Source: Antedon bifida
Taxonomy: Eukaryota > Echinodermata > Crinoidea > Comatulida > Antedonidae
Direction of reading: 5' to 3'
Length of the DNA stretch: 64,000 nucleotides
Assembly: GCA_963402885.1 (NCBI GenBank)
Contig: OY727098.1
Span: 20,446,717-20,510,716, forward strand
Shown here: positions 2,831-53,323 of the stretch, piece by piece
How the letters are laid out: every line of letters begins with the position of its first letter
Numbering within the stretch: position 1 is the stretch's first letter
The notes under the pieces: model-generated
Database searches by the model: none
The model's input: the letters and a program-made list of their open reading frames with translations, nothing else
Told to the model about the DNA's origin: nothing
Made by a program: the position numbers and the translations under genes

Positions 2831-2836
2831 AACAAC

Positions 2837-12198: not shown

Positions 12199-12563
12199 CT
12201 AAATGAATAGTAAATCTTGTGAACACGAGCACTTTTCGGTCTGTTGTAGCTCAAGTTGAACTGTGCTATTGTCACTGCATCTAAAATGTTTCAGTGACAT
12301 ACTGGTCTCTGATGGTTTACACACCCCAGTTACACTTATTCTTTGGAGACGCTGTTCAATAGATATTACTTTAGTGTAGGAAGGGCAGCATCCGGTACAT
12401 TCAGTTGTCTCGATAACACCAGTGCATGTATGTCCAGAGTCTATTGTAATACACAGGTTCTTCTTTATTTGTTTGGTAGAACATGCTGTGGTTGGCTCTT
12501 CAATAGGGTTCATTTCTGTTGCTTCTATTCTATCTACGGAATGTGTTTCTTGAACAGGTGTCA
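12199..12563 (-). CDS. Last exon of the giant lectin gene: C-terminal cystine knot (CTCK) domain
   Basis: The exon encodes 121 residues and ends at TAG (12199-12201). After a short linker it has ten cysteines in about 95 residues, including the knot signature C-x-G-x-C (read as ECTGCC) and a terminal C-x-C (EKCSCS), spaced as in CTCK domains of mucins, VWF, Slit and CCN proteins. In those families this domain forms tail-to-tail disulfide dimers. The identification rests on cysteine pattern and C-terminal position. A related cystine-knot growth-factor fold cannot be excluded without a profile search. Confidence 0.75.
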
Positions 12564-15500
12564 CTGAAATAATAATGTTTATAACTTGTTGTAAAGTTAA
12601 GTTTTTTTGCTGCTAAATTGTGCAATGAAGACATTCTGTTCTTCACTTGGTAATTAAGTACAACTGGAAAATAAACATTTGAAACCAAAAAGTTGCTTTA
12701 TTATACTAAAATTATAATTCAAAATGTACCTAATTCCTTGGCAACAGTTGTGAAGGAGTATGTAAATAACTCGGTCTCTGTTGATTTTTCGCAAGCTGCT
12801 ATAAATAACTCGGAGCAGACACGATCCTCCCATTTTCCAGTGGTTGATGTCAGAACAGCACAATTGGACGTACCTGGCTTTCCTAATTCCCAATCTGAAA
12901 CATAGATAGTGAATTCAGAGTACAGATAATAATATCCATGTACGGCCTATATAGGTGTAAAATATGAAAAAGAATATTGAGAATGTGAGTTTTGTGGGAA
13001 AAAAGTAATAGGCCTAAAGCAGAAATGGAAATTATTTGTGCACAGTTTAATATTCAAATATTATTAAACAAACAACATACTTGTAAACCCAGATTCGTCT
13101 TGTCCACTACTCCATACTCCATCACCATTAATAGAATACCCGATCCACATAGCATCATTATACTTTCGACGTTGTGAAATCTTTGATCTTAAAAACTCAT
13201 TCTCTTCAAGATTATCTATTGTTGTCATCACTGCGTTTCTTTCTGAACAGAAAGAACTAGCTGACGAAAAACTCAACCTTCTTAATGAAAACTGGTAACA
13301 CTTTTTGTTGAAATAGACCCAGTTCTCAGGACACAATTCTAAAATAAATAAAGGTTTGTATCGGTATTTTATTTACCATTAAGCTAATGTATTATTAATG
13401 TTTAAATAACATTAAATCCAATAATGTTGGAATTGGTATTATTTTTCAATATAAAATGATTACCAGAATGAAAACCCACCTGCATAGTTTGTTTCTGAAT
13501 AGCTTTCCGTAACTACCTGAGGTTTCTCAGTTGATTTGGATGACAAAATGGCAGCTTTGTTTTCAACATGAAATAAATCGGAACTTGTATCTCCATTGTC
13601 TTCTGTAGTCGCGGGAGATTTGACTATTCCTTGGTCAACTTCATTAGGTATCTGTGTTTCTCCATTTTTTGTTGTTTTTTCTGTGTCTGTTTCATCAACA
13701 AAAACGATTTCTGTAGTTTTATCAACTTGTTCAACTACATCAGGAGCTTCCGTCCCAACTTCGTTCTCAGCTTCTCCTGACTCTGTATCATCTGTAACAG
13801 TTTCAATTTCTATCTCTGTGTCTACGACGACCTCAAGAAGGGCTTCAGTAGTTTCGTCTGACTTTTGGTCAACTTCATCAGGTGTCGGTGTTCCTTCTAT
13901 AATATCATCATCTCCTGTTTCAACAACAATCTTTACCTGTGGCTCTTCCTCAGTAGTAGTAGTAGTCTCTGTTTCTTTTTCAGGTTCTTCAACACCATTG
14001 GAAACAATTTCTTTGTTAGTTTCGTCTATGTCTGTTTCACCAGCAACATCAACAGTTTCCGTAGTTTTGTCAGATATATCTTCAATAATCTCTGGACTCT
14101 CTGTTCCAACCATTTTCTCTGTTTCTTGTTTGTCATCAGTAGTCTCAAAAACAAGATCCTCTCTTGGCTCTACCTCAGCTGTTGTCATTTCTGTTTCACC
14201 TTCAGCCTCAGCTTCTGTTTCTTCTATTGTTTTTCCAGTAGTCTCTTTATCTACTGTTTCATCCGTCACTATTTCTTTTTCAATTGCCTCAGGACTTTCT
14301 GTTTGAACTGTTTCCTCTGTGTCTTTCTTTTCATCAGTAGACCCAGTCACAACATCCTCTCCCATCTCTTTCTCATCAATTGTTGTTTCTGTTTCTGTTT
14401 CTTCTTCATCATCATCAGCTTCTGTTTCAATCACAATCTTTTCTTCCTCAGTGGTAGCAGTAGTCTCTGTTTCTTTTTCAGGTTCATCAACACCATTGGA
14501 AACAATTTCTCCAGTAGTTTCCTCTTTGTCTGTTTCACCAGTGACATCAACAGTTTCCGTCGTTTTGTCAGCTATATCTTCAATAAACTCTTTTTCTACT
14601 GTTTCATCCGTCACTATTTCTTTTTCAATTGCCTCAGGACTTTCTGTTTGAACTGTTTCCTCTGTGTCTTTCTCTTCATCAGTAGACTCAGTCACAACAT
14701 CCCCTCCCATCTCTTTCTCATCCATTGTTTCTGTTTCTGTTTCTTCTTCATCATCAGCTTCTGTTGTAGTTGTTTCTTCTATTGTATCTTCAGTAGTCTC
14801 TTTTTCTACTATTTCATCCGTCACTGTTTCTTTTTCAATTGCATCAGGACTTTCTGTTTCAACTGTTTCCTCTGTGTCTTTCTCTTCATCAGTAGACTCA
14901 GTCACAACATCCTCTCCTGTCTCTTTCTCATCCATTGTTACTTCTGTTTCCTCTTCAGCCTCAGGTTCTGTTGTAGTTGTGTCTTCTATTATCTCTCCAG
15001 TATCTTCAGGTGTCTCTTTTTCTACTATTTCATCCGTCACTGTTTCTTTTTCAATTGCATCAGGACTTTCTGTTTGAACTGCTTCCTCTGTGTCTTTCTC
15101 GTCATCAGTAGGCTCAGTCACAACATCCTCTCCCATCTCTTTCTTATCCATTGTTTCTGTTTCTTCTTCATTATCAGCTTCTGGTGTAGTTGTTTCTTCT
15201 ATTGTATCTTCAGGTGTCTCTTTTTCTACTGTTTCATCCGTCACTGTTTCTTTTTCAATTGCATCATGACTTTCTGTTGGAACTGCTTCCTCTGTGTCTT
15301 TCTCGTCATCAGTAGACTCAGTCACAACATCCTCTCCCATCTCTTTCTTATCCATTGTTTCTGTTTCTTCTTCATCATCAGCTTCTGTTGTAGTTGTTTC
15401 TTCTATTGTATCTTCAGTAGTCTCTTTTTCTACTGTTTCATCCGTCACTGTTTCTTTTTCAATTGCCTCAGGACTTTCTGTTTGAACTGTTTCCTCTGTG

Positions 15501-18500
15501 TCTTTCTCTTCATCAGTAGACTCAGTCACAACATCCTCTCCCATCTCTTTCTCATCCATTGTTTCTGTTTCTGTTTCTGTTTCTTCTTCATCATCAGCTT
15601 CTGTTGTAGTTGTTTCTTCTATTGTATCTTCAGTAGTCTCTTTTTCTACTGTTTCATCCGTCACTGTTTCTTTTTCAATTGCATCAGGACTCTCTGTTTC
15701 AACTGTTTCCTCTGTGTTTTTCTGTTTATCAGTAGGCTCAGTCACAACATCCTCTCCTGTCTCTTTCTCATCCATTGTTACTTCTGTTTCCTCTTCAGCC
15801 TCAGGCTCTGTTGTAGTTGTGTCTTCTATTTTCTCTCCAGTATCTTCAGGTGTCTCTTTTTCTACTATTTCATCCGTCACTGTTTCTTTTTCAATTGCAT
15901 CAGGACTTTCTGTTTCAACTGTTTCCTCTCTGTCTTTCTCGTCATCAGTAGTCTCAGTCACAACATCCTCTCCCATCTCTTTCTCATCCATTGTTTCTGT
16001 TTCCTCTTCATCATCAGCTTCTGTTGTTGTTGTTTCTTCTATTGTTTTTTCAGTATGTTCTTCTATCTCTGTGTCTACGATGACCTCAGGAATAGCTTCA
16101 GTAGTTTCGTCTGATTTTTGGTCACCTTTATCAGGTGTCGGTGTTTCTCCATCTTCTATAATATCATCATCTCCTGTTTCAACAACAATCTTTAGCTGTG
16201 ACTGTTCTTCAGTAGTAGTAGTAGTAATCTCTGTTTCTTTTTCAGGTTCTTCAACACCATTTGAAACAATTTCTTCAGTAGATTCCTCTTTGTCTGTTTC
16301 ACCAGCGACATCAACAGTTTCTGTAGTTTTGTCAGATATATCTTTGATAATCTCTGGACTTTCTGTTCCAACCACTTCCTCTGTTTCTTTTTTGTCATCA
16401 GTAGTCTCAAAAACAAGAACTGTTGTCATTTCTGTTTCAGCTTCTGTTTCTTCTATTGTTTTTTCAGTGTCTTCAGTAGTCTCTTTATCTACTGTTTCAT
16501 CCGTCACTGTTTCTTTTTCAATTGCCTCAGGACTCTCTGTTTCAACTGTTTCCTCTGTGTCTTTCTCTTCATTAGTAGGCTCAGTCACAACATCCTCTCC
16601 CATCTCTTTCTCATCTATTGTTGTTTCTGTTTCTTCTTTATTATCAGCTTCTGTTGTAGTTGTTTCTTCTATTTTCTCTCCAGTATCTTCAGTAGTCTCT
16701 TTTTCTACTGTTTCATCCGTCACTGTTTCTTTTTCAATTGCATCAGGACTTTCTGTTTGAACTGCTTCCTCTGTGTCCTTTTCGTCATCAGTAGGCTCAG
16801 TCACAACATCCTCACCCGTCCTTGTGTCATCTATTGTTACTGTATCATCCTTTCCTGTCCCAGAAACTTCTGTTTCAGTGACTTCTTCACTTTCAAATTC
16901 CACAACTGATTTGAAAGATGATTCTTCGTAAACAACATTTGTTGATGTTTTGCATATAACACGATACACTTTTTTACACGATTCAGCCATCCACTTTCCT
17001 GTGGACGATATAATTACTCCACAAGCTCTACCATCATCGCCAACTGAATCATCTACATTTATATTGGTTGGTTCTCCATCCTTCCAATCTGTGAAATTAG
17101 ATAAATACTACAAATCAGATAACATTTATTATTAAAAATTACGAATTCACTTGCTAATCGTCATATTCGATTGTCAATTTTATAATGAGGTTTATGAGAT
17201 ATCTGTTTTGATGTATTATTGTATTGTAAAACCTTAAATATGAGTTACATGTTGAAATAAGCTGATTCCACTAACACTCATTATTTAATAAAAAGTTAGT
17301 GACTCTCGAAATTTCATTTATAAAGCCAAACAAGATTGTCAAAAACATCGTCATAACTAAAGAAAACCATAATTGTGTGAATGTATTCTGTAAGGGGAAA
17401 GGAAGTTACTTCATTTTATTTTTTAATTCAAATAAAAAGAAGAAATCATTTACTACACAAATACTACAATATAGATAAAACTAGAAATTGCAAAGTGCAA
17501 GTGAGTGAAGCAGATATAACATAACATAGTTTTGATGAGTCAGGGCCCTCCTAAAGACACAAACTGAATGTCAATATTAGAACACTTCTTATTGTACAAT
17601 CTTTCCTTGATAAAATGTATTTCACCTGTAAACATAAACTCTTCCTTGGTGTCTTATTATACCAATGTTTTGTAGACAACAATTAACTTTCAGATTTGAC
17701 AAGCAATGATTTTTATGGGAGGTCAAATTGCTGTGCAGAATATGAATAGTTGACATGAAGCAATACATATATTACACATAGAGCGTGTATTTGTATATGT
17801 ACTAGCTGCTTGTTTCCAAAATGTTATTGGTTTAACATTATCATATTCATTATTGTTGAAACATTTTCATATAATTCCAAGACAAAATACCCAAAATTCT
17901 ATTTTAAAATAAAATTTACTTACTTTCAAATTGAACATCTTCACCGGATTGCCAACTCCATTCCATTCCATATTCGCGTGTATAACCTATCCATGCACGG
18001 TTATTGTACCTCTTTTTCTTTAACAGATTCTCTTTAACAAATTCATTTTCATCTTTACTAAACATATCAACTAGATAAGAATTTTCTTCTCGACAATATT
18101 TGATAGCAGCAAAAACAGTAAAGCGTTTATTTGTGAATTTATAGCAGCTTCCTTGATATTGCAGCCATCCCACATTACACAAACCTGTATGTAAATGAAT
18201 TATTAGAATTAAAAATTAAAGACAAAATAACATTTAAGGACATTTGCTAATTATTTACTCAATGTTAGTGTATACTGTACATTATTCAGGTTTAAAAATA
18301 TGGAAAAATTATGTTTCTATTTTAAAGAACTTACTGCATCCATTAATAGTTTCTTTATCATCAGCTACAGTTCCGTCAATCTCATCTTCAGTTTCAGTTA
18401 TTTCTTCTACCTGGTTTTCAACTGCAGTTGTCCGATCAGCAGTAACCTCGGTGTCAGTTTGTTCAATATCAGTAGTTACAGTTCCTTCTGCATCTATCTC

Positions 18501-21500
18501 ATCTCCAGTTGTTTTGTCATCAGTAGTCTCCGTGTCTACTTTGTCATCCATGACTGTTTCTTCTTCAGCAGTAGTTTCTGTGTCTTTCTCAGACTCATCA
18601 ACGCCATTGGAAACAATTACTTCTGTTGTTTCATCCATGTCTGTTTCATCAAAAATATTAATGGTTTCTGTAGTTTTGACAGTTTCTTCTTCCACTGCCT
18701 CAGGACTCTCTGTTTCAGTTGGTTCCTCTTCATCAGTAGGGTCAACAACATCATCTCTTGTCTTAATCTCATCTGTTGTTACTTCTGCTTCTGTTTCAGT
18801 TGTTTCCTCTGTTTCTTTCTCTTCATCAGTAGGCTCAACAACATCTCCTGTATCTGTCCCACCTGTTGTTATTTCTGGTTCTTCACCAACATCAGCTTCT
18901 GTTTCGGTTGTGTCTTCAGTTTCTTTTCCGGGTTCTTCAGTAGATTCTGTGTCTACTGTGTCAACCGTTAATGTTTCTTCTTCAGTGGTTGTAGGAGTCT
19001 CTGTTTCATCTATTTCCTCTGTTTCCTTCTCTTCATCAGTAGGCTCAATCACAACAACATCTCCCTTATCAGTCCCACTTGTTGTTACTTCTGTTTCATC
19101 ATCAACCTCAGCTTCTGTTTCAGTGGTTTCTTTTCCGGGTTCTTCAGTAGATTCTGTGTCTACTGTGTCAACCGTTAATGTTTCTTCTTCAGTGGTTGTA
19201 GGACTCTCTGTTTCATCTGTTTCCTCTGTTTCTTTCTCTTCGTCAGTAGGCTCAATCACAACAACATCTCCCTTTTCAGTCCCACCTGTTGTTACTTCTG
19301 TTTCATCATCAACCTCAGCTTCTGTTTCGGTTGTGTCTTCAGTTTCTTTTCCGGGTTCTTCAGTAGATTCTGTGTCTGCTGTGTCAACAATTAATGTTTC
19401 TTCTTCAGTTGTTGTAGGAGTCTTTGTTTCATCTGTTTCCTCTGTTTCTTTCTCTTCGTCAGTAGGCTCAATCACAACAACATCTCCCTTATCAGTCCCA
19501 CCTGTTGTTACTTCTGTTTCATCACCAACGTCAGCTTCTGTTTCGGTTGTGTCTTCTGTTTCTTTTCCGGGTTCTTCAGTAGACTCTGTGTCTGCTGTGT
19601 CAACAATTAATGTTTCTTCTTCAGTAGTTGTAGGACTCTCTGTTTCATCTATCCCCTCTGTTTCTTTCTCTTCGTCAGTAGGCTCAATCACAACAACATC
19701 TACCTTGTCTATCCCACCTGTTGTTACTTCTGTTTCATCATCAACCTCAGCTTCTGTTTCAGTAGTTTCTTCAGTTTCTTTTCCGGGTTCTTCAGTAGTT
19801 TCTGTTTCTACTGTGTCAACCGTTAATGTTTCTTCTTCAGTAGTTGTAGGACTCTCTGTTTCATCTGTTTCCTCTGTTTCTTTCTCTTCATCAGTAGGTT
19901 CAATAACATCTCCCGTATCTGTCCCATCTGTTAATAATTCTGGTTCTTCACCAACGTCAGCTTCTGTTTCGGTTGTGTCTTCAGTTTCTTTTCCGGGTTC
20001 TTCAGTAGATTCTGTGTCTGCTGTGTCAACAATTAATGTTTCTTCTTCAGTAGTTGTAGGACTCTCTGTTTCTTCTGTTTCCTCTGTTTCTTTCTCTTCG
20101 TCAGTAGGCTCAACAGCATCTCCCTTATCAGTCCCACCTGTTGTTACTTCTGTTTTATCATCAACCTCAGCTTCTGTTTCAGTAGTTTCTTCAGTTTCTT
20201 TTCCGGGTTCTTCAGTAGTTTCTGTGTCTACTGTTTCAGCCGTTACTGTTTCTTCTTCAGTGGCTGTAGGAGGCCCTGTTTCATCTGTTTCCTCTGTTTC
20301 TTTCTCTTCATCAGTAGGTTCAACAATCTCTACTGTATCTGTCCCACCTGTTGTTATTTCTGGTTCTTCACCAACGTCAGCTTCTGTTTCGGTTGTGTCT
20401 TCAGTTTCTTTTCCGGGTTCTTCAGTAGATTCTGTGTCTACTGTGTCAACCGTTAATGTTTCTTCTTCAGTAGTTGTAGGACTCTCTGTTTCATCTGTTT
20501 CCTCTGTTTCTTTCTCTTCGTCAGTAGGCTCAATCACAACAACATCTCCCTTATCAGTCCCACCTGTTGTTACTTCTGTTTCATCATCAACCTCAGCTTC
20601 TGTTTCAGTAGTTTCTTCAGGTTCTTTTCCGGCATCTTCAGTAGTTTCTGTGTCTACTGTTTCAACCGTTACTGTTTCTTCTTCAGTGGTTGTAGGAGGC
20701 CCTGTTTCATCTGTTTCCTCTGTTTCTTTCTCTTCGTCAGTAGGCTCAATCGCAACGACATCTCCCTTATTAGTCCCACCTGTTGTTACTTCTGTTTCAT
20801 CATCAACCTCAGCTTCTGTTTCGGTTGTGTCTTCAGTTTCTTTTCCGGGTTCTTCAGTAGTTTCTGTGTCTACTGTTTCAACCGTTACTGTTTCTTCTTC
20901 AGTGATTGTAGGAGGCCCTGTTTCATCTGTTTTCTCTGTTTCTTTGTCTTCGTCAGTAGGCTCAATCACAACAACATCTCCCTTATCAGTCCCACCTGTT
21001 GTTACTTCTGTTTCATCATCAACCTCAGCTTCTGTTTCAGTAGTTTCTTCAGTTGCTTTTCCGGCATCTTCAGTAGTTTCTGTGTCTACAGTTTCAACCG
21101 TTACTGTTTCTTCTTTAGTGGTTGTAGGAGGCTCTGTTTCATCTGTTTCCTCTGTTTCTTTCTCTTCGTCAGTAGGCTCAATCACAACAACATCTCCCTT
21201 CTCAGTCCCACCTGTTGTTACTTCTGTTTCATCATCAACCTCAGCTTCTGTTTCAGTAGTTTCTTCTCTTTCTTTTCCGGGTTCTTCAGTAGATTCTGTG
21301 TCTGCTGTGTCAACAATTAATGTTTCTTCTTCAGTAGTTGTAGGACTCTCTGTTTCATCTATTTCCTCTGTTTCTTTCTCTTCGTCAGAAGGTTCAATCA
21401 CAACAACATCTCCCTTATCAGTCCCACCTGTTGTTACTTCTGTTTCATCACCAACGTCAGCTTCTGTTTCGGTTGTGTCTTCAGTTTCTTTTCCGGGTTC

Positions 21501-24500
21501 TTCAGTAGATTCTGTGTCTGCTGTGTCAACAATTAATGTTTCTTCTTCAGTTGTTGTAGGAGTCTTTGTTTCATCTGTTTCCTCTGTTTCTTTCTCTTCG
21601 TCAGTAGGCTCAATCACAACAACATCTCCCTTATCAGTCCCACCTGTTGTTACTTCTGTTTCATCACCAACGTCAGCTTCTGTTTCGGTTGTGTCTTCTG
21701 TTTCTTTTCCGGGTTCTTCAGTAGACTCTATGTCTGCTGTGTCAACAATTAATGTTTCTTCTTCAGTAGTTGTAGGACTCTCTGTTTCATCTATTCCCTC
21801 TGTTTCTTTCTCTTCGTCAGTAGGCTCAATCACAACAACATCTACCTTGTCTATCCCACCTGTTGTTACTTCTGTTTCATCATCAACCTCAGCTTCTGTT
21901 TCAGTAGTTTCTTCAGTTGCTTTTCCGGCATCTTCAGTAGTTTCTGTGTCTACTGTTTCAACCATTACTGTTTCTTCTTCAGTGGTTGTAGGAGGCCCTG
22001 TTTCATCTGTTTCCTCTGTTTCTTTCTCTTCGTCAGTAGGCTCAATCACAACAACATCTCCCTTATCAGTCCCACCTGTTGTTACTTCTGTTTCATCATC
22101 AAACTCAGCTTCTGTTTCAGTAGTTTCTTCAGTTGCCTTTCCGGCATCTTCTATAGTTTCTGTGTCTACTGTTTCAATCGTTACTGTTTCGTCTTCAGTG
22201 GTTGTAGGAGACCCTGTTTCATCTATTTCCTCTGTGTCTTTCTCTTCATCAGTAGGTTCAACAACCTCTCCTGTATCTGTCCCACCTGTTGTTATTTCTG
22301 GTTCTTCACCAACGTCAGCTTCTGTTTCGGTTGTGTCTTCAGTTTCTTTTCCGGGTTCTTCAGTAGATTCTGTGTCTACTGTGTCAACAATTAATGTTTC
22401 TTCTTCAGTAGTTGTAGGACTCTCTGTTTCATCTATTTCCTCTGTTTCTTTCTCTTCGTCAGAAGGTTCAATCACAACAACATCTCCCTTATCAGTCCCA
22501 CCTGTTGTTACTTCTGTTTCATCACCAACGTCAGCTTCTGTTTCGGTTGTGTCTTCAGTTTCTTTTCCGGGTTCTTCAGTAGATTCTGTGTCTGCTGTGT
22601 CAACAATTAATGTTTCTTCTTCAGTTGTTGTAGGAGTCTTTGTTTCATCTGTTTCCTCTGTTTCTTTCTCTTCGTCAGTAGGCTCAATCACAACAACATC
22701 TCCCTTATCAGTCCCACCTGTTGTTACTTCTGTTTCATCACCAACGTCAGCTTCTGTTTCGGTTGTGTCTTCTGTTTCTTTTCCGGGTTCTTCAGTAGAC
22801 TCTATGTCTGCTGTGTCAACAATTAATGTTTCTTCTTCAGTAGTTGTAGGACTCTCTGTTTCATCTATTCCCTCTGTTTCTTTCTCTTCGTCAGTAGGCT
22901 CAATCACAACAACATCTACCTTGTCTATCCCACCTGTTGTTACTTCTGTTTCATCATCAACCTCAGCTTCTGTTTCAGTAGTTTCTTCAGTTGCTTTTCC
23001 GGCATCTTCAGTAGTTTCTGTGTCTACTGTTTCAACCATTACTGTTTCTTCTTCAGTGGTTGTAGGAGGCCCTGTTTCATCTGTTTCCTCTGTTTCTTTC
23101 TCTTCGTCAGTAGGCTCAATCACAACAACATCTCCCTTATCAGTCCCACCTGTTGTTACTTCTGTTTCATCATCAAACTCAGCTTCTGTTTCAGTAGTTT
23201 CTTCAGTTGCCTTTCCGGCATCTTCTATAGTTTCTGTGTCTACTGTTTCAATCGTTAATGCTTCGTCTTCAGTGGTTGTAGGAGACCCTGTTTCATCTAT
23301 TTCCTCTGTGTCTTTCTCTTCATCAGTAGGTTCAACAACCTCTCCTGTATCTGTCCCACCTGTTGTTATTTCTGGTTCTTCACCAACGTCAGCTTCTGTT
23401 TCGGTTGTGTCTTCAGTTTCTTTTCCGGGTTCTTCAGTAGATTCTGTGTCTACTGTGTCAACCGTTAATGTTTCTTCTTCAGTAGTTGTAGGACTCTCTG
23501 TTTCATCTCTTTCCTCTGTTTCTTTCTCTTCGTCAGTAGGCTCAATCACAACAACATCTCCCTTATCAGTCCCACCTGTTGTTACTTCTGTTTCATCATC
23601 AACCTCAGCTTCTGTTTCAGTAGTTTCTTCAGGTTCTTTTCCGGCATCTTCAGTAGTTTCTGTGTCTACTGTTTCAACCGTTAATGTTTCTTCTTCAGTA
23701 GTTGTAGGACTCTCTGTTTCATCTGTTTCCTCTGTTTCTTTCTCTTCGTCAGTAGGTTCAATCACAACAACATCTCCCTTATCAGTCCCACCTGTTGTTA
23801 CTTCTGTTTCATCACCAATGTCAGCTTCTTTTTCGGTTGTGTCTTCAGTTTCTTTTCCGGGTTCTTCAGTAGACTCTGTGTCTGCTGTGTCAACAATTAT
23901 TGTTTCTTCTTCAGTAGTTGTAGGACTCTCTGTTTCCTCTGTTTCTTTCTCTTCGTCTGTAGGCTCAATCACAACAACATCTCCCTTATCAGTCCCACCT
24001 GTTGTAACTTCTGTTTCATCACCAACCTCATCTTCTGTTTCAGTAGTTTCTTCAGTTACTTTTTCGGCATCTTCAGTAGTTTCTGTGTCTACTGTTTCAA
24101 CTGTTACTGTTTCTTCTTCAGTGGTTGTAGGAGGCCCTGTTTCATCTGTTTTTTCTGTTTCTTTCTCTTCGTCAGTAGGCTCAATCACAACAACATCTCC
24201 CTTATCAGTCCCACCTGTTGTTACTTCTGTTTCATCATCAACCTCAGCTTCTGTTTCAGTAGTTTCTTCAGTTGCTTTTCCGGCATCTTCAGTAGTTTCT
24301 GTGTCTACAGTTTCAACCGTTACTGTTTCTTCTTTAGTGGTTGTAGGAGGCTCTGTTTCATCTGTTTCCTCTGTTTCTTTCTCTTCGTCAGTAGGCTCAA
24401 TCACAACAACATCTCCCTTCTCAGTCCCACCTGTTGTTACTTCTGTTTCATCATCAACCTCAGCTTCTGTTTCAGTAGTTTCTTCTCTTTCTTTTCCGGG

Positions 24501-30500: not shown

Positions 30501-33500
30501 TTTTCCGGGTTCTTCAGTAGACTCTGTGTCTGCTGTGTCAACAATTATTGTTTCTTCTTCAGTAGTTGTAGGACTCTCTGTTTCCTCTGTTTCTTTCTCT
30601 TCGTCAGTTGGCTCAATCACAACAACATCTCCCTTATCAGTCCCACCTGTTGTTACTTCTGTTTCATCACCAACCTCATCTTCTGTTTCAGTAGTTTCTT
30701 CAGTTAATTTTTTGGCATCTTCAGTAGTTTCTGTGTCTACTGTTTCAACCGTTACTGTTTCTTCTTCAGTGGTTGTAGGAGGCCCTGTTTCATCTGTTTT
30801 CTCTGTTTCTTTCTCTTCGTCAGTAGGCTCAATCACAACAACATCTCCCTTATCAGTCCCACCTGTTGTTACTTCTGTTTCATCACCAACGTCAGCTTCT
30901 GTTTCGGTTGTGTCTTCAGTTTCTTTTCCGGGTTCTTCAGTAGACTCTGTGTCTGCTGTGTCAACAATTAATGTTTCTTCTTCAGTAGTTGTAGGACTCT
31001 CTGTTTCATCTGTTTCCTCTGTTTCTTTCTCTTCGTCAGTAGGCTCAATCACAACAACATCTCCCTTATCAGTCCCACCTGTTGTTACTTCTGTTTCATC
31101 ATCAACCTCAGCTTCTGTTTCAGTAGTTTCTTCAGTTTCCTTTCCGGCATCTTCAGTAGTTTCTGTGTCTACTGTTTCAACCGTTACTGTTTCTTCTTCA
31201 GTGGTTGTAGGAGGCCCTGTTTCATCTGTTTCCTCTGTTTCTTTCTCTTCGTCAGTAGGCTCAATCACAACGACATCTCCCTTATCAGTCCCACCTGTTG
31301 TTACTTCCGTTTCATCACCAACGTCAGCTTCTGTTTCGGTTGTGTCTTCAGTTTCTTTTCCGGGCTCTTCAGTAGATTCTGTGTCTGCTGTGTCAACAAT
31401 TAATGTTTCTTCTTCAGTAGTTGTTGGACTCTCTGTTTCATCTGTTTCCTCTGTTTCTTTCTCTTCGTCAGTAGGCTCAATCACAACAACATCTCCCTTA
31501 TCAGTCCCACCTGTTGTTACTTCTGTTTCATCATCAACCTCAGCTTCTGTTTCAGTAGTTTCTTCACTTGCTTTTCCGGCATCTTCAGTAGTTTCTGTGT
31601 CTACTGTTTCAACCGTTACTGTTTCTTCTTCAGTGGTTGTAGGAGGCTCTGTTTCATCTGTTTTCTCTGTTTCTTTCTCTTCGTCAGTAGGCTCAATCAC
31701 AACAACATCTCCCTTATCAGTCCCACCTGTTGTTACTTCTGTTTCATCACCAACGTCAGCTTCTGTTTCGGTTGTGTCTTCAGTTTCTTTTCCGGGTTCT
31801 TCAGTAGACTCTGTGTCTGCTGTGTCAACAATTAATGTTTCTTCTTCAGTAGTTGTAGGACTCTCTGTTTCATATGTTTCCTCTGTTTCTTTCTCTTCGT
31901 CAGTAGGCTCAATCACAACAACATCTCCCTTATCAGTCCCACCTGTTGTTACTTCTGTTTCATCATCAACCTCAGCTTCTGTTTCAGTAGTTTCTTCAGT
32001 TTCTTTTCCGGCATCTTCAGTAGTTTCTGTGTCTACTGTTTCAACCGTTACTGTTTCTTCTTCAGTGGTTGTAGGAGGCCCTGTTTCATCTGTTTCCTCT
32101 GTTTCTTTCTCTTCGTCAGTAGGCTCAATCACAACGACATCTCCCTTATCAGTCCCACCTGTTGTTACTTCCGTTTCATCACCAACGTCAGCTTCTGTTT
32201 CGGTTGTGTCTTCAGTTTCTTTTCCGGGTTCTTCAGTAGATTCTGTGTCTGCTGTGTCAACAATTAATGTTTCTTCTTCAGTAGTTGTTGGACTCTCTGT
32301 TTCATCTGTTTCCTCTGTTTCTTTCTCTTCGTCAGTAGGCTCAATCACAACAACATCTCCCTTATCAGTCCCACCTGTTGTTACTTCTGTTTCATCATCA
32401 ACCTCAGCTTCTGTTTCAGTAGTTTCTTCACTTGCTTTTCCGGCATCTTCAGTAGTTTCTGTGTCTACTGTTTCAACCGTTACTGTTTCTTCTTCAGTGG
32501 TTGTAGGAGGCTCTGTTTCATCTGTTTCCTCTGTTTCTTTCTCTTCGTCAGTAGGCTCAATCACAACGACATCTCCCTTATCAGTCCCACCTGTTGTTAC
32601 TTCTGTTTCATCATCAACCTCAGCTTCTGTTTCAGTAGTTTCTTCAGTTGCTTTTCCGGCATCTTCAGTAGTTTCTGTGTCTACTGTTTCAACCGTTACT
32701 GTTTCTTCTTCAGTGGTTGTAGGAGGCTCTGTTTCATCTGTTTCCTCTGTTTCTTTCTCTTCGTCAGTAGGCTCAATCACAACAACATCTCCCTTCTCAG
32801 TCTCACCTGTTGTTACTTGTGTTTCATCATCAACCTCAGCTTCTGTTTCAGTAGTTTCTTCTGTTTCTTTTCCGGGTTCTTCAGTAGATTCTGTGTCTGC
32901 TGTGTCAACAATTAATGTTTCTTCTTCAGTAGTTGTAGGACTCTCTGTTTCATCTATTTCCTCTGTTTCTTTCTCTTCGTCAGTAGGCTCAATCACAACA
33001 ACATCTCCCTTATCAGTCCCACCTGTTGTTACTTTTGTTTTATCACCAACGTCAGCTTCTGTTTCGGTTGTGTCTTCAGTTTCTTTTCCGGGTTCTTCAG
33101 TAGATTCTGTGTCTGCTGTGTCAACAATTAATGTTTCTTCTTCAGTAGTTGTATGACTCTCTGTTTCATCTGTTTCCTCTGTTTCTTTCTCTTCGTCAGT
33201 AGGTTCAATCACAACAACATCTCCCTTCTCAGTCTCACCTGTTACTTCTGTTTCATCATCAACCTCATCTTCTGTTTCAGTAGTTTCTTCAGTTGCTTTT
33301 TCGGCATCTTCAGTAGTTTCTGTGTCTACTGTTTCAACCGTTACTGTTTCTTCTTCAGTGGTTGTAGGAGGCCCTGTTTCATCTGTTTCCTCTGTTTCTT
33401 TCTCTTCGTCAGTAGGCTCAATCACAACAACATCTCCCTTATCAGTCCCACCTGTTGTTACTTCTGTTTCATCATCAACCTCAGCTTCTGTTTCAGTAGT

Positions 33501-36500
33501 TTCTTCAGTTGCTTTTCCGGCATCTTCAGTAGTTTCTGTGTCTACTGTTTCAACCGTTACTGTTTCTTCTTCAGTGGTTGTAGGAGGCCCTGTTTCATCT
33601 GTTTCCTCTGTTTCTTTCTCTTCGTCAGTAGGCTCAATCACAACAACATCTCCCTTATCAGTCCCACCTGTTGTTACTTCTGTTTCATCATCAACCTCAG
33701 CTTCTGTTTCGGTTGTGTCTTCAGTTTCTTTTCCGGGTTCTTCAGTAGATTCTGTGTCTGCTGTGTCAACAATTAATGTTTCTTCTTCAGTAGTTGTAGG
33801 ACTCTCTGTTTCATGTGTTTCCTCTGTTTCTTTCTCTTCGTCAGTAGGCTCAATCACAACAACATCTCCCTTATCAGTCCCACCTGTTGTTACTTCTGTT
33901 TCAGCACCAACGTCAGCTTCTGTTACGGTTGTGTCTTCAGTAGTTTCCGTGTCTACTGTGTCAACAATTAATATTTCTTCTTCAGTAGTTATAGGACTCT
34001 CTGTTTCATCTGTTTCATCTGTTTCTTTCTCTTCGTCAGTAGGTTCAATCACAACAACATCTCCCTTATCAGTCCCACCTGTTGTTACTTCTGTTTCATC
34101 ACCAACGTCAGCTTCTGTTTCGGTTGTGTCTTCAGTTTCTTTTCCGGGTTCTTCAGTAGACTCTGTGTCTGCTGTGTCAACAATTAATGTTTCTTCTTCA
34201 GTAGTTGTAGGACTCTCTGTTTCATCTGTTTCCTCTGTTTCTTTCTCTTCGTCAGTAGGTTCAATCACAACAACATCTTCCTTATCAGTCCCACCTGTTG
34301 TTACTTCTGTTTCATCATCAACCTCAGCTTCTGTTTTGGTTATTTCTTTTCCGGGATCTTCAGTAGTTTCCGTGTCTACTGTGTCAGCCTTAGCTTCTGT
34401 AGGTTCAACCTCGATAACATTTTTATTTTCAGTAACATCCTCAGGGACAGCTTCAGTTGTAACTACTTCCTCCGTACATTCTCTAGGTAATGGTAGCGTA
34501 GGATCTGGTATTTAATAGAGTTGCATATGGTTTATACATTGTTTTATCGTGTATTTTATGGAATTTAATTTTAACAACGTATTATTAACTTTAAATTTAA
34601 TAAAGGGCTTTGACAAAGTTCCTTTTTAAAATGTAAATGATATGGAAAGGATTAAGACCTTGTTTGAAAGACAGAGAAAATATTTCTTTTTTATAGGCTA
34701 CAACACTCCTGATTGAATCGTGTAGTTTTATTCTAGCTGTGCCATATTTCAAATGTTTTTTCGAATAATAACTGATCTCCTGAAAATACTAATTTATTTT
34801 TAAAACTGTTTTTGTTACATAAAATGTATTTACTTTTATCAAAAAGTAGATCGAAAACCCGTTTTCAATTTTTCTTTTAGTGTACAACGTACAGTATTTA
34901 GAATATACTAACCAAATTCGCACAGTATCTTTATGTGTCTTTCACATGGTATTGCAAACCACTGTCCTAAACGGACTTTCATTGCGGCACATAGGTTTCC
35001 TCTTTGTGGTTCTCCATTCTTCCACGCTGAAAGTAATGTAAAATTATATAACTAATTAGCTACATATATTGGGTGAATGTGGTTCAAGATATATCTAAAT
35101 ATATCTATATATGATAAAGTATATGAATATTAGTTGTTAGTTGTGGAATGTGTTATTGTCTAAACACAAGAAATATGTCACCTCACCCACAATCTAAGGA
35201 ACAACTCAATGTCATAATTATGTAAAGGAACATGCTTTGTTTATTGCAATACCTTCAAATCGTGATGTCTCATCAGTTGGAATCCAACGATATCCATCAA
35301 CCTGTGAAATGTAACGGTAGCCTATCCAGATAAGCTTGGTTTTGTAACCATCGTCAATAAGTCTTTCTTGCAGAAAGTCGTTTTCATCTTGAGACGATAT
35401 GACAACAGGTCTGGCATTGCACCTTTCCTCGTTACACCGTGCGGCAATGCCCTCAAACGGATTTGCGTTTGCCACAAAGTAACAATTCTTTCCATAACTG
35501 TAGGTTTGAGCCGGACATTCTGTGAAATAAATAATACAAATAATTTTTCAATATTTAATGTTCCCATGTTATTGTCTAATATAAATGTGTATTTTTTTTT
35601 TATTACGACAGGGTTAGCAAATATAAATTGCTCTGATATTCTGTCGTTATATGTTATGAGTGTAATGGACAAGCGAAACATCTGATTATAGACCCATACT
35701 TTAAGAAAAATGCACATCCAATACTGTAAACCCCGTTTAATATATCAGGGAGCTTTTTCATCGGGAATAAATGAAGGGTATGTTAATTAACAGAGCGTAA
35801 CGATTACGAGACACAAGCGCCGACGGTCATCACCCTTGGTGAGTTTATGCGTCTTAGGTTAGACAAGTTTATTTAGTCATTTTTGTCATTACCAAAATTG
35901 CAGCTTGGCAAGGAAATTATATATCTGAAGAAATCAAAACAGCTTCTAAGCTTGTTACCATTATAATGGTAGATGTATGTGGATGGATTTGAGTTCAGCC
36001 CGCGTAAACAACTTCTTCCACAAGATATCCTTTGATTTTCCGACAACAAAATTACAAAGATCAATTAAAAATGTCTTACCTATCACATCTGGCGTCCTTT
36101 TCGCTATTCTATGGTTAACCTATGCAATATAAAAATATACAGTAATAGATATTTTCAATTTAAATCAACTTGAAACAGCAATGTAATGTACACTTATAAA
36201 CTCAGTCGATATTCGTACGTACTGTATCATGCTTATCGGTGTCATCTCGGCTTACGGTAACAAGCTCAATTTATAGCACCTAACTCTTAAAGAAAGTAAA
36301 CCTACCCTAACCTAAATACTTAATAATATAAGGTGAGTAAAATGACCGCGTGGTTAAGACAGGAACCCCGTTTACCATACATCGGTTCGAAGCCGACTAC
36401 CTCCTAGTTCCGGTGGTCGAACAAGTCTTCTCAGATAAGGACTATAAGGTCCAATGTACACAATTTGCCCGTGTGCACTTTAAAAAAAATCATTCGTTCC

Positions 36501-39500
36501 CGGTGAACTGGTTCACAAAATAGCCCCTTGGTCAGGGAGATTACCACCAATCAGATAGGACAGTAATTAATTTACTAACACTAACTAATCAGTGGACCTG
36601 CTGATTGGCAGAAAATTTAAATCGTCGACATACACTTTCTGAAAATGAAACTACTGTATTTGTCGGGAGATATACTGCATAAAGTTTGTCGTCGCTAAAC
36701 AAGATACCGCACATGTATCTGGTATTTTCTTTTTAAAATTAAAACAGGTATTATTTTAAAACATGGACAGACCAGGCTTTGATTCTCTGGGAAATTGCTA
36801 AGAAAAAATGTCATGGAGTAACAGTATAATAAAATGGGTAAAGTAGTGACAGTAAAGCAAGAAAATAAAAAAAATAAAAAAATGATAGTCATGCAGATAG
36901 TTTTGTATTGCAAAGTGGTAGATCGGTTTGCCGTTTCGTATTTTTACATTATTACGCATTACTGTATTTATAATACTCATGTGCTACTCACAATTTGATA
37001 TTGTTAAATTAACATATTAATTAACGGAAGCATTTTAGGCATGAGGAAATAAAGCTATTAACCTCGTTCTAAAAGTCAATGGTGTTCTTTATATGATTAT
37101 GAACTCGCTCTTCTAAACTGATTATGATACCGTGGCATGCTATGGACTGCTGTATTGAATTGAAATGATGGGCCTCTTTCAATCGTATTCAATCATTTCC
37201 ACATGCAAAAATTGACCGTTTGAACATTAATTTAGAATCGTATTATCATACTGGTTCACTACCAAATTGATGCATGCATTTTCGGTATGTTGAAGTTATT
37301 AGAATCTATACAGTAATATGTATTTAGCTTCTACATTTTTTATAAAGCCAGCCTAATGTTTATGGACGTTTTCAGAAAACATAAGTATTATAAAAATAGG
37401 CGTAAACAGTCTGAATTGTGTATTGATATACGTTACGTGAGCCGCTGTTTTAATACATTTGTGTTCTGTCACTATAAACTTCCTTCCAGCATAACAGCTG
37501 AACTGAGATTCAGTGGTTATATCAATGAACTTTCGAATTGAGATAATTATCGTAAAAGTTCGTCATGCAATGCCAGATATTAAATAGTCTATTAAAAAGG
37601 ATAAATGTAACAAGTTGTTTCATTATACTTTAACTATTATATTTAGTCATGACAAACTGGTGTACCATTATATCCATATATGACAATCCACTTGGACATG
37701 AAATTATCAAATGTGTACTCGCTCAAAGGGGAAGAAAAAATCGATACAAGTGCCTATATTAAAGCTCTGTCTACACTATCAAACTTTATGTGACAAAAAA
37801 TGTGATGTGCCTATATATGGACATGATGATGTCATATCACTACCATATTTAGGCATATCACTACCATATTTGGGCACATCACACTTTTTTGTCAACTAGT
37901 TTGATAGTGTAGACAGAGCTTTAGATGTCAGAAATGTATAATGATGCCATATTATATCATAATTTAGGCCTAATCACACAAACAAGTAAGATCTGCAGTA
38001 ACAAGACAATATCAGATTTAACAACATATCTTTAAAAGATAAATTAATCTATTAAATATGTTTACGATGAACCAATATAATAATATTCAATTTTCTGGTT
38101 CAATTAAAAAACTATAAAAATGTAACTTGACTTGAACTATTATCAAAATAAAATTTTTTTTTTTATCAATGAGCTTTTTTTGGAATTCCAAATAGGAAGT
38201 AAACACAATTGTTATCTGGTGTATTGCGTATTAGAAACCTAAAGAACAATCCATTTTTGAATGAAATGTATTTCATTTCATTTTCATTTATATATTCGAC
38301 ATCATGTCCTGAGACCCCAAAAGCAACAGAGTCACCATAACATGAAATGTCTGGAGCCCCAGAAGAACTTAACTACATAAAATAAAAAATTAATATACAG
38401 TTCAAAATACAAAATAAAATTAATTATCACATGTGTACTCGCTCAAAGGAAGAAGAAAAACAAAATGCCTATCTCGTTTGATGGTAATATCATGTCAGAA
38501 ATTGAAATGAAATTGTAATCTATTTATATATCATTACAATTTTAATCACAAAAAAGACCAGAAACAATTAGATGACTTTACAAAACAACTTCTACTCGAT
38601 CGTTAACTACATTAAGTGTATATCTGAGGACAGGATGACTTTGAAATTTGTCTCAAATGTACCGTGTCTAAACATTAGCCTGGTCAAGCGACCGACTATA
38701 ACCGAATTACGGAAGAACTGTCACAGTAAATTTTAAAACATTTTTACAAATTAGTTTTTTGTGAACGGCCATTGCACTATTTTTATATCCGTCGACAAAT
38801 ACAATATGATAGAAAGAGAAGCGTGTAAAGGTTGCGCCATCTACAGCACGGTCAACTTCGCTTTATGAATTTTAACCAGATTTCAAAGCAATCGACTGCG
38901 GTGCTCAGTTTGGAGAGATATTTTCAAATCATTTCCCATCTGCAAGACAAATACCTACTAAAAGTGAAAGTTTGGTTGGTTTTTCTAGTGGCTGATCTGG
39001 ATAGGCGCGAGTGCTGACGGCTGTGGGTCCGTTTCAAGTTATGCTGGGGACGATAATAAATATATACCTTTACTAGACAACCAACCGGGAAGGGTAAGCC
39101 CAAAATGGTGTTTCAGATTCCAAAGCTGTTGTTTATATTGAGTAAATAATCTTGTTATAGGCGATTTATTTTTATCGCTATAAAAAAAATTGATTTCTTT
39201 TGTTTTGTACAGAGTGCCGCTATAGCTTCTAGTATGCAGTGTTGAGTATGGTTGATAAAGCTAGCCTAACACTTAAAAAATAGAAGCGTACTTAGCTGTG
39301 GCTCCATGAAAAATAATTTATTGTGACCATTTTCCAACGCGACATATTTTATCACCAATCTTTATATTAGGTCTGTGGTATACCAGTATAAATTGAGAGT
39401 ATTTAAACTGAGTGACGTAATAATTTATTTGTAAATATGCCTGGCGGAGGCGGATGAATTGAGTTCAATGGTGATATGTGATGGCAAGAAAGTCTCCCAT

Positions 39501-40776
39501 AACTTCCTACAATTTAACATCCGCCATAAAAATGTGTAAATAGTAATATACCTCTAGGCTACAGTATACTAATGTGACTACACTACTTTCACAATAAGAA
39601 AATTCGATTCAATGTAGGCTTCATAATTTAGAATTATTTAAAGTAAATTAATAAAGAAAACAAACAAATTCATTTCATTCAATTAAACAGAAAAATCTGA
39701 TTTAAACAGAAATTTGATGTTAGCTCTAGTACAGTAACAGTCTTCGACAACCAACAGAAGAGAACATAACGTATGTTGTTCAATAACATATGCTGCAAGT
39801 CGTTGGTAATTGCAACCACTTTTGGGTTATAACAAGTGCATTCTTTAAAAGATATCGCAGACATAATTTTACGTAAACGAAAGTAGACATATCAGTTGTA
39901 TAAATGATGTAACTGTAACACATTTTCAGTACACTCGTCAAGTTCCTAATTTTGATTGTTCTCCATTTTGTTAATGATATTATATAATTATTTATCAGCC
40001 TAAAAAGTACAACGCTAGCTAATTTTAAAAATGGACAATCAATCTTTATACAACGTAGACATCTCATTTAGAAGTATTACCAGAGTTAACAAAGTTCTAT
40101 AAAGATGTATTGTCCCCGAAAAACATGAAAAATAAAGGTTAATAAAATCAGACATTGATTGATTTTTGTAGTTTTAATCACTTCCGTATGGGAAAAAACG
40201 GAAAAATAATGTTTTCACTTATAAAATGACAAATTTCACTATTTTTTGCTTTGAATTACAATTTTTTAAGTAAATACATTTTCTTTTCTTTTTCAAAGTG
40301 GACTATTTCAATGTGACTATAACTACTATTATATTCAACCAAAAAAAAATTTACTTTTTTTCAAGGGGACAATACATCTTTAAAATATGAACTAAATGTG
40401 TTTACAATGAACCAATACAATTGTATTTTGTTTTATAAATGCATTTTTTTTTTCGAAATTGGCAATGAACATCTTCTAATAGCCAATTTTCCGGTTCAAT
40501 TAAAAAACTGTAAAAATGTAACTTTATGTAAATCTTAATACATACTTATTATCAAATCAATAAACATAATACGTATTTTATCAATCTCAAAGCTGGGATT
40601 GAAATAGAAATTAGCATTGTTAATGTAATATATATATTATAAATGTCCAATCTAATTTTTTTAATGGCCATATTTAATAAATCACGGTTCTGAAAAAGGT
40701 ATTACTATAAACTTACCTTGACTGCCTGTACAGTTGTCAACATGCACAAAACAATAATGGTATGTAGGTCTCTCAT
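12199..40776 (-). CDS. Giant secreted protein: signal peptide - CTLD - Thr/Glu array - CTLD - Thr/Glu array - CTLD - cystine knot
   Basis: Ten minus-strand exons, 5' to 3': 40717-40776, 36080-36119, 35253-35519, 34913-35026, 18335-34504, 17924-18184, 13480-17088, 13081-13338, 12730-12894 and 12199-12563. They sum to 21,309 nt (7,102 residues plus TAG). Every junction has GT/AG borders and matching phase; apart from the first intron (phase 0) all are phase 1, the usual phase for shuffled extracellular modules. The ATG at 40774-40776 has A at -3 and opens a 20-residue signal peptide (TIIVLCMLTTVQA core). The order is CTLD1 (about 34-160), array I (about 190-5500), CTLD2 (5552-5690), array II (about 5700-6835), CTLD3 (6842-6965) and CTCK (about 7005-7100). 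CTCK domains dimerise gel-forming mucins and von Willebrand factor through disulfides, so an extracellular mucin-like or adhesive polymer is inferred. No VWD domains are present. I recognise no named orthologue. Repeat copy number depends on correct assembly. Confidence 0.88.
12730..13338 (-). CDS. CTLD3 of the giant lectin gene (two exons)
   Basis: Exon 13081-13338 encodes the first half, with CPENWVYFNKKCYQF, the helix around SSASSFCSERNA and the core MWIGYSINGDGVW. Exon 12730-12894 encodes the second half, with NWELGKPGTSNCAVL, TGKWEDRVC and AACEK. The fold cysteines are present. The sugar and calcium motifs of classical lectins are not canonical: GKPG stands where EPN or QPD would be and WED where WND would be. 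Classical calcium-dependent sugar binding is therefore doubtful. The 165-nt exon also adds about 17 residues of linker before the cystine-knot exon. Confidence 0.9.
13480..17088 (-). CDS. Exon encoding the second half of CTLD2 and Thr/Glu array II
   Basis: This 3.6-kb exon begins with NWKDGEPTNINVDDS and continues through STGKWMAESCKKVYRVIC, completing CTLD2. The internal methionine in that stretch is not a start, because the exon is open upstream to the splice acceptor. About 1,150 residues follow, dominated by Thr, Glu, Asp, Val and Lys, in units of roughly 60-72 residues built on KETVTDETVEKETTEDT, EETTTTEADDEEETETMDEK and GEDVVTESTDEEKDTEE. The units differ from those of array I but share the same ancestral pattern. 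A non-repetitive tail (SSKSTEKPQVVTESYSETNY) leads to the donor site. Confidence 0.9.
13600..16800 (-). repeat. Thr/Glu-coding tandem array II (about 15 diverged units)
   Basis: Units of about 190-216 bp repeat in frame, each with an EKETVTDE-like and a GEDVVTE-like segment. Units near the array edges carry a variant block (PEIIEDISDKTTETVDV) and are more diverged; central ones are closely alike. All length changes keep the frame. Confidence 0.85.
17924..18184 (-). CDS. Exon encoding the first half of CTLD2
   Basis: The exon encodes CNVGWLQYQGSCYKF, then AAIKYCREENSYLVDMFSKD, then the core RAWIGYTREYGMEWSW, a standard long-form CTLD N-terminal half. It lies between the two repeat exons and joins both in phase 1. 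Confidence 0.88.
18335..34504 (-). CDS. 16.2-kb single exon encoding Thr/Glu array I
   Basis: The exon is open for 16,170 nt, from the acceptor before DPTLPLPRECTEE to a donor (GCA|GTAAGT) after ETINGC. It encodes about 5,390 residues almost wholly of 72-residue units starting VIEPTDEEKETEETDET. Coding exons this long are rare, but are known for repeat proteins such as human MUC16 and titin. Composition is dominated by Thr, Glu, Asp and Val, with recurrent PTTTEEE and TTETEA runs, so the chain should be strongly acidic, extended and rich in possible O-glycosylation or phosphorylation sites. The last 180 residues or so are unique acidic sequence. The opposite strand is also open for nearly 15 kb, as a shadow of the repeat codons. 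Confidence 0.9.
18800..34400 (-). repeat. About 70-unit 216-bp coding tandem array with higher-order structure
   Basis: Two unit types alternate irregularly. One contains SPTTTEEETLIVDTADTES with EEPGKETEDTT; the other contains PPTTTEEETVTVETVDTE with EDAGKATEETT. Nested duplications are visible from rare variants. The CTATTCCCTC variant occurs at 21791, 22865, 25010 and 26084, giving a 1,074-bp repeat inside a 3,219-bp duplication. A GTTGCAGG variant recurs 1,071 bp apart (27991, 29062) and a TTCCGTTTCATC variant 864 bp apart (about 31306, 32170). All spacings are multiples of three, so the frame is kept. Confidence 0.9.
34913..35519 (-). CDS. CTLD1 of the giant lectin gene (two exons)
   Basis: Exon 35253-35519 encodes ECPAQTYSYGKNCYFV, VISSQDENDFLQERL and the core LIWIGYRYISQVDGYRW. 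Exon 34913-35026 encodes AWKNGEPQRGNLCAA, LGQWFAIPCERH and KILCEF, closing the domain. GEPQ replaces the mannose-type GEPN, and the WND calcium motif is absent (QWF), so ligand binding may be non-canonical. An extra Cys pair (RCNEERCNA) lies in the first half. Confidence 0.9.
36080..36119 (-). CDS. 40-nt linker exon of the giant lectin gene
   Basis: It encodes VNHRIAKRTPDVI plus the first base of the next codon. It is required because the signal-peptide exon ends in phase 0 and the CTLD1 exon begins in phase 1; this exon converts one to the other with good acceptor and donor sites. The Lys-Arg pair could be a propeptide cleavage site, which is inference only. Confidence 0.7.
36338..36575 (+). 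mobile_element. tRNA-derived SINE, copy 1 (in intron 1 of the giant gene)
   Basis: It has the same order of blocks as the copy at 59.67 kb: GTGGTTAAGACAGG (A-box region), GGTTCGAAGCC (B box), CAAGTCTTCTC, GATAAGGACTATAA, CCCGGTGAACTGGTTCACA, GATTACCACC and GATAGGACAGTAATTAAT. It is moderately diverged. Confidence 0.75.
37762..37921. mobile_element. 160-bp Tc1/mariner-like MITE
   Basis: The perfect termini AAGCTCTGTCTACACTATC and its reverse complement at the right end are flanked by TA on each side (37760-37761 and 37922-37923). The interior has short repeats (CACTACCATATTTRGGCA twice) and no reading frame. A nearby duplicate of the host sequence at about 38405-38500 lacks the element. Confidence 0.8.
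38030..38130. repeat. Duplicated segment, copy A (partner at 40378-40525)
   Basis: TTTACGATGAACCAATA followed by TTCTGGTTCAATTAAAAAAC and AAAAATGTAACTT recurs at 40390-40525 with few changes and one extra stretch. Both copies are in the first intron of the giant gene. Confidence 0.6.
40101..40383. mobile_element. MITE family with AAGATGTATTGTCCCC termini, copy 1
   Basis: The left end AAAGATGTATTGTCCCC matches the right end GGGGACAATACATCTTTA in inverse, with TA at each border. The inner block AAACATGAAAAATAAAGG followed by an AATCACTTCC-like stretch is shared with the copy at 47.2 kb. It is non-coding. Confidence 0.75.
40717..40776 (-). CDS. Signal-peptide exon of the giant lectin gene
   Basis: The exon encodes MRDLHTIIVLCMLTTVQAVK. 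A hydrophobic core follows a short polar start, with a likely cleavage after VQA. The donor is a strong AAG|GTAAGT. The next exon lies 4.6 kb away, which leaves a small risk that this exon belongs to another transcript. Confidence 0.75.
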
Positions 40777-53285: not shown

Positions 53286-53323
53286 AGCAACACAATAATA
53301 TGTATTGAGGTAATATGCGCAGA

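Follow-up and report, generated by a model that had tools for sequence, protein, structure and literature searches.

What kind of protein could be produced by a gene in which lectin-like domains alternate with giant acidic repeat arrays? What appears to be such a gene is found in the crinoid Antedon bifida, within a stretch of 64,000 nucleotides of contig OY727098.1 (hereafter the window), which is AT-rich and contains zero N. Ten exons on its minus strand, running from 40776 to 12199, splice into a single frame of 21,309 coding bases and 7,102 residues with one terminal stop. All nine introns are bordered by GT-AG, the junction phase being 0 at the first and 1 at the remaining eight, and the ten exons, common frame, coordinates and length of the original prediction for this DNA are thereby reproduced. 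From N- to C-terminus, the product would consist of a signal peptide, a first C-type lectin-like domain (CTLD1), array 1 (residues 161-5550), CTLD2, array 2 (which runs up to residue 6840), CTLD3 and a C-terminal knot, with a computed mass of ~776 kDa, signal peptide counted, and a pI of 4.05. At the level of the DNA we consider this ten-exon arrangement of a secreted CTLD/array/knot protein confirmed, and the ten exons would be expressed as the transcript of one gene. The reading that we favour, with moderate confidence, is that of a secreted, disordered and polyanionic spacer polymer with CTLD nodes, for use in mucus, cuticle or matrix. This reading and the rivals weighed below are not fully mutually exclusive.

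Ten exons in a single frame

The gene model comprises the following features, given from the start codon onwards:

40717..40776, minus strand: exon 1, start codon and putative signal peptide MRDLHTIIVLCMLTTVQA, which a simple rule predicts to be cleaved behind residue 18; a candidate exon without homology support
36080..36119, minus strand: exon 2, a short stretch of basic character that includes a Lys-Arg site (NHRIAKR); a candidate exon, joined by phase only
35253..35519, minus strand: exon 3, first half of CTLD1 from the N-terminus (together with exon 4, Lectin_C E=2e-11)
34913..35026, minus strand: exon 4, C-terminal half of CTLD1, where EPQ / WFA replace EPN / WND
18335..34504, minus strand: exon 5, array 1, 5,390 aa of 72-aa Thr/Glu/Asp repeats with a net charge of -1900
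20947..27527, minus strand: duplicated part of array 1, with a 3,219-bp block present twice in tandem, letter for letter
17924..18184, minus strand: exon 6, N-terminal half of CTLD2 (Lectin_C E=1.8e-17 together with the start of exon 7)
13480..17088, minus strand: exon 7, remaining C-terminal half of CTLD2 (EPT / WMA) and array 2 in one exon
13081..13338, minus strand: exon 8, first half of CTLD3 from the N-terminus (together with exon 9, Lectin_C E=2e-16)
12730..12894, minus strand: exon 9, C-terminal half of CTLD3, where KPG / WED replace EPN / WND
12199..12563, minus strand: exon 10, short linker, CTCK-like cystine-knot domain and stop codon
11858..11915, minus strand: a pair of AATAAA poly(A) signals, which begin 284 and 336 bases downstream of the stop

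Between 35520 and 56000 of the minus strand, 13 ATGs open a signal-peptide-like stretch by our simple rule, and a strong donor follows one of the 13, that of exon 1. The same rule returns 8 ATGs on the plus strand, none of them with a strong donor. A lax donor threshold adds a second exon 1 candidate on the minus strand (54314) and three on the plus strand.

It could be argued that two genes have been joined here, e.g. one for CTLD1-array 1 and another for CTLD2-array 2-CTLD3-knot, or that exon 5 is optional and mostly skipped. Since exons 3 to 9 are all of phase 1-1, skipping of exon 5 keeps the frame and would leave a form of 1,712 aa that lacks array 1; furthermore, the splice acceptors of exons 5 and 10 are mediocre, ranking at the 74th and 65th percentile among the AGs of the window. 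However, exons 6 and 7 together form one CTLD and are mutually required, no ATG with a signal-peptide-like start by the simple rule is present on the minus strand between 12199 and 35520, and the introns downstream of exon 3 measure merely 0.14-0.84 kb. Because exon 7 holds array 2 along with the C-terminal half of CTLD2, the repeats moreover belong to the CTLD protein without any assumption on splicing. We deem joined genes or a mostly skipped exon 5 improbable, and somewhat more so than the two readings of the arrays that are discussed in the next section.

The acidic arrays and their coding status

Exons 5 and 7, repeat for the most part, account for 6,593 of the 7,102 residues. Tandem Repeats Finder reports 72.8 copies of a 216-bp unit over 18790-34386 (array 1) and 7.0 copies over 14588-16053. 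Anchored unit starts in array 1 number 73, and the resulting 72 intervals measure 72 aa in 56 cases, 70 in 8, 69 in 6, and 65 and 71 in one each. Array 2 is made up of diverged copies of the unit of array 1, exact 20-mers of which are found at 41 window positions beyond array 1 itself, spanning 14656-16553. Within array 1 (~20947-27527) the sequence is identical to itself at a lag of 3,219 over 3,362 bp, which amounts to a perfect tandem duplication of a 3,219-bp block. As this is either of very recent date or an artefact of the assembly, the length of 7,102 residues holds as assembled; should it be an artefact, the protein would measure ~6,030 aa. Array 1 also contains further long near-copies, with 13-19 base differences per 1.1-1.4 kb.

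Is the frame through these arrays really a coding frame? Very long open frames across tandem repeats require evidence other than length, and we rejected length as coding evidence here, because the strand opposite the array is likewise open, for 4,972 codons, which renders it uninformative. The intervals of array 1 deviate from 72 residues in 16 of 72 cases and keep the frame in all of them, several of these odd-length units having been copied from one another, so that not all are independent. Among the first six frame-neutral DNA alignments between the tail of array 1 and array 2, one is ungapped, four have 3- and/or 12-base gaps only, and the remaining, best-scoring one combines 3/12-base gaps with a +1/-1 pair. 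The first six protein-guided alignments yield a dN/dS of 0.36-0.47, which the guidance by protein biases low. Taken together, unit lengths, gap pattern and dN/dS would constitute modest evidence for coding, better than that of open-frame length.

The composition of exon 5 is dominated by Thr (26.4%), Glu (28.2%) and Asp (11.6%), with 1.7% Ser; Glu and Asp together reach 39.8%, and the net charge is -1,900. Proline stands at 4.3% in exon 5, 3.1% in exon 7 and 4.0% overall, and glycine at 5.7% overall. By charge and hydropathy the arrays lie far into the disordered side (H 0.36 vs a boundary of 0.53-0.54), and exon 5, scanned whole against Pfam, matches no family at E<=0.01.

The main rival to the reading that we favour is a biomineral matrix protein of the skeleton, in which the acidic repeats would bind calcium and organise carbonate while the CTLDs anchor the chain, a role that has been proposed for the spicule matrix proteins of sea urchins. 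The Glu and Asp content of exon 5 would suit such a role, and sea urchin spicule matrix proteins are secreted and combine a CTLD with acidic repeats, the latter enriched in proline and glycine (PMC5460417). CTLD proteins are also present in feather star and brittle star skeletons (PMC5460417 and PMC7351957). On the other hand, proline and glycine are only at the overall levels given above, and Ser, the usual phospho-acceptor, is scarce, with 127 Ser and 59 S-x-E in the counted array stretches. Furthermore, neither a CTCK nor a set of three CTLDs is known to us from any spicule matrix protein. On balance we regard a skeletal role as unlikely.

A true mucin-type gel former, with densely O-glycosylated Thr and a knot that forms covalent dimers, is in our view less likely again. 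The counted array stretches do offer 1,659 Thr, the knot is C-terminal as in gel-forming mucins, and MUC2 gave the best alignment of the three knots tried (MUC2, VWF and norrin). However, by the rule for mucin PTS domains (Ser+Thr >=40% and Pro >=5%), 0 of 7,003 windows of 100 aa qualify, the maximum Ser+Thr being 34%, and the arrays are therefore not PTS domains but rather polyanions. An acidic residue at -1 or +3, unfavourable to GalNAc-transferases, neighbours 74% of the counted Thr, and the knot lacks cysteines at the interchain positions of VWF, as detailed below. Pfam moreover finds no VWD, VWC or SEA domain in exons 3-4 and 6-10 (E<=1) or in the whole of exon 5 (E<=0.01), exons 1-2 (33 residues) lying outside the scan; in PMC1552070, VWD or SEA was required besides a PTS domain. 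As such, the separation from classical gel-forming mucins that had been drawn from the lack of VWD is borne out across exons 3-10.

Lectin-like domains, C-terminal knot and cysteines

The three lectin domains originally predicted all exceed the curated Pfam cut-off for Lectin_C (22.6 bits), with 45, 64.5 and 61.1 bits for CTLD1-3 (E 2e-11, 1.8e-17 and 2e-16). Alignment with ASGR1 shows that they carry the six long-form CTLD cysteines, which places them in the CTLD superfamily; their pairwise identities are 36/123, 37/121 and 41/123 aligned positions, and an intron cuts all three at one common place. At E<=0.01, CTLD2 has 167 distinct PDB sequences as matches, and among those listed (60 of the 167) a PLA2 receptor is the best. 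A profile built from CTLD1-3 detects no fourth CTLD in the window, its next match having E=1.2. Viral CTLD-like families that surfaced with CTLD2 and CTLD3 (UL45 with E=0.013 and 0.00044, A33R with E=0.026) fall under the Pfam cut-off, and we read them as a shared fold.

So what could these domains recognise? When aligned with ASGR1 (QPD/WND) and MBL2 (EPN/WND), each of CTLD1-3 falls short of a complete EPN/QPD plus WND site for sugar: the corresponding motifs are EPQ/WFA in CTLD1, EPT/WMA in CTLD2 and KPG/WED in CTLD3, the last of which retains the D of WND. None of the three is predicted to hold a classical calcium-dependent sugar site, and non-classical ligands are possible. For the recognition modules that had been proposed, the CTLD fold stands and the glycan recognition is unproven. 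A secreted immune lectin that acts as a multivalent microbe trap would make use of three CTLDs, and the minus-strand neighbour gene at 56-62 kb has the CUB, WSC and SRCR domains typical of receptors. Such a lectin would, however, have to do without a complete classical sugar-binding site in any CTLD and with a chain given over mainly to the repeats of exons 5 and 7, and neighbour genes are weak evidence; we hold this to be very improbable and the least favoured of all readings considered here.

The cystine knot is the weakest part of the observation, suggested by its cysteine spacing and by the alignment with the MUC2 CTCK. CTGCC in exon 10 fits CxGxC, a similar CxGCC being present in the glycoprotein hormone alpha subunit, and the knot cysteine series ends in CxC, in agreement with the CTCK pattern. 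The spacing of the six knot cysteines and a flanking one is 9-4-22-14-16-2, compared to 9-4-20-14-16-2 in MUC2 and 11-4-20-14-16-2 in VWF. Scores as high as those of the actual knot alignment arose in 2 (MUC2), 13 (VWF) and 60 (norrin) of 2,000 full shuffles, and in 25, 31 and 126, respectively, of 2,000 shuffles with the cysteines fixed. A profile of these three knots ranks exon 10 top of 1,981 six-frame peptides (E=0.016), with a score of 12.4 bits that is smaller than its composition bias of 13.9 bits. A phmmer search of the knot exon against PDB returned 0 matches at E<=10, and AlphaFold, run on it without an alignment, produced no usable model (mean pLDDT 46.9, pTM 0.35). Searches of viral contigs with the knot exon yielded 8 pattern matches, with no relative among them, and one 22-base pattern had 0 matches there. 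When the window was searched for another knot, the only candidate was a peptide of the plus strand at 49055-49210 (E=0.013), which was dismissed as chance. The CTCK domain of the original prediction is thus upheld by spacing and by MUC2 alignment, but misses the Pfam cut-off.

Past the signal peptide there are 31 cysteines, with 18 in long-form CTLD pairs and 10 in the knot exon if all of these pair, which leaves C67, C170 and C5550. As the number is odd, at least one cysteine is unable to pair within a monomer and would be either free or intermolecular. C5550, located beside CTLD2, is a candidate interchain link that depends on the gene model, and the extra knot-exon cysteines C7019 and C7040 may be bonded to each other. 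The interchain cysteines of VWF are 2771, 2773 and 2811 (PMC8466076), and exon 10 has no counterpart to any of them: there is no Cys between C7041 and C7063, the place of the first two, nor after C7095. Mucin-style covalent tail dimers are consequently not predicted, and the disulfide-linked dimers through CTCK that had been put forward are not supported.

A putative polyanionic polymer among known systems

How would such a chain work as a spacer polymer? The signal peptide would route it into the secretory pathway. Both Thr/Glu/Asp arrays are predicted to be unfolded, every three residues contributing roughly one net negative charge, and this charge would lead to swelling and to the binding of cations and water, resulting in an extended strand. 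The three CTLDs at the array ends would provide folded binding nodes, of which the ligands are most likely protein or matrix partners, or glycans through a non-classical site, because the usual calcium- and sugar-binding residues are incomplete. At the C-terminus the knot would cap or dock the chain, with non-covalent pairing as a possibility, and unpaired C5550, C67 or C170 may join chains. The combined result would be a hydrated, CTLD-cross-linked layer, e.g. mucus, a cuticle coat or extracellular matrix, and unequal exchange would shift the length of the arrays with the reading frame preserved. Secretion, disorder, swelling, partners and tissue are all predictions made from the sequence. 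More tentatively, and as a possibility to which we give only slightly more credence than to a skeletal role, the protein could be a gel or matrix former free of VWD and PTS domains: charge within a polypeptide of 5-6.5 thousand residues would replace glycans for swelling, CTLDs would be the cross-link nodes, a knot without interchain cysteines would cap the end, and the odd cysteines beside CTLD1 and CTLD2 would link chains covalently.

Several points weigh against the polymer that we favour. Its function is deduced from composition and domain content alone, the gene model is a prediction from genomic sequence, and exons 1-2 depend on phase and on the signal-peptide rule. Variation inside array 1 was rejected as proof of the frame: among the 34 distinct units of the 44 that are exactly 72 codons long, other unit lengths being excluded, pN/pS is 0.76 in the coding frame vs 0.56 in one opposite-strand frame, and since the in-frame value is not below the opposite-strand one, this variation shows no selection on the protein. 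In the six frame-neutral DNA alignments, differences at the three codon positions sum to 70, 42 and 78, hence the third-position excess is only slight. Finally, both Pfam matches of the knot exon fall under cut-off, DAN with 18.4 bits vs 22 (E=0.0022) and Cys_knot with 13.4 vs 24 (E=0.1).

As a whole, the earlier interpretation survives in its secreted, very long, acidic, CTLD-bearing and VWD-free protein, finds no support for its CTCK dimers, and is weak in mucin-likeness, no PTS window having been found. If the product is real, the animal could make a polymer on the scale of mucus or matrix that lacks the VWD, PTS and interchain-cysteine machinery of gel-forming mucins, and would offer a clear test case for protein-encoded charge standing in for glycans. 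The logic of biomineral matrices (CTLD and acidic repeats) and that of mucins (a terminal knot) would then be combined in one chain.

The rest of the window holds pieces of what we take to be a CABLES-like (Cdk5/Abl substrate) gene at 2747-10357 on the plus strand, convergent with the giant gene, for which Pfam gives Cyclin_N at 10118-10357 (E=0.0023, under cut-off) and nothing at 2747-3580. The likely receptor gene lies at 56570-61921 on the minus strand, with WSC and CUB exons over the Pfam cut-off and two SRCR exons, one over and one under it; a possible tail exon in this region is an open frame of 237 aa that has no match in Pfam. The sequence TAGGCCTA, presumably common in echinoderm DNA, occurs 15 times across the window, vs 0.27 expected from dinucleotides. 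A tandem array with periods of 191 and 164 bp is located at 52291-53290, and a GGTC-rich stretch that, judged by eye, recurs along with a similar flank at 1-304, ~41200 and ~48300 is probably a dispersed repeat. Rfam and tRNA scans of the window gave 0 matches.

No protein with the order CTLD-array-CTLD-array-CTLD-knot is described in the accessible text of the literature searched, in which 'CTLD' and 'CTCK' also do not appear together as whole words in one paper, and the sea urchin adhesion literature, to the same extent, has no similar protein. The claim that no family with this order has been described is thus sustained as far as the literature goes; it is set by papers only, and the novelty is provisional. 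How, then, does the protein relate to systems that are known? Like the gel-forming mucins (MUC2, MUC5AC, MUC5B) and VWF, it would be a very long secreted chain with a C-terminal CTCK and near-equal spacing of the knot cysteines, and with the mucins it shares tandem repeats that contain Thr. Unlike them, it has acidic polyanion repeats and three CTLDs, with neither a PTS window nor the interchain cysteines of VWF. With the spicule matrix proteins of sea urchins it has in common a CTLD, acidic repeats and (here predicted) secretion, but these proteins, of the SM50/SM30 type, have one CTLD, no knot domain and a far smaller size, whereas the Antedon protein has three CTLDs, a knot, and Thr/Glu repeats without enrichment in Pro or Gly. 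The limpet pedal mucus protein P-vulgata_1 also unites a CTLD and a C-terminal cystine knot in one protein, and carries two vWFD, six EGF and three KSPI domains in what we take as a length of 1854 (PMC7333891); in the Antedon protein, no vWFD, EGF or KSPI domain was found and giant acidic arrays are present instead. Lastly, lecticans such as aggrecan have an extended polyanionic middle region and a CTLD, that of aggrecan matching CTLD2 in PDB with E=2.5e-13. Lecticans owe their charge to chondroitin sulfate on Ser-Gly sites, whereas in the Antedon protein, with its 1.7% Ser in exon 5, the charge lies in the polypeptide itself.

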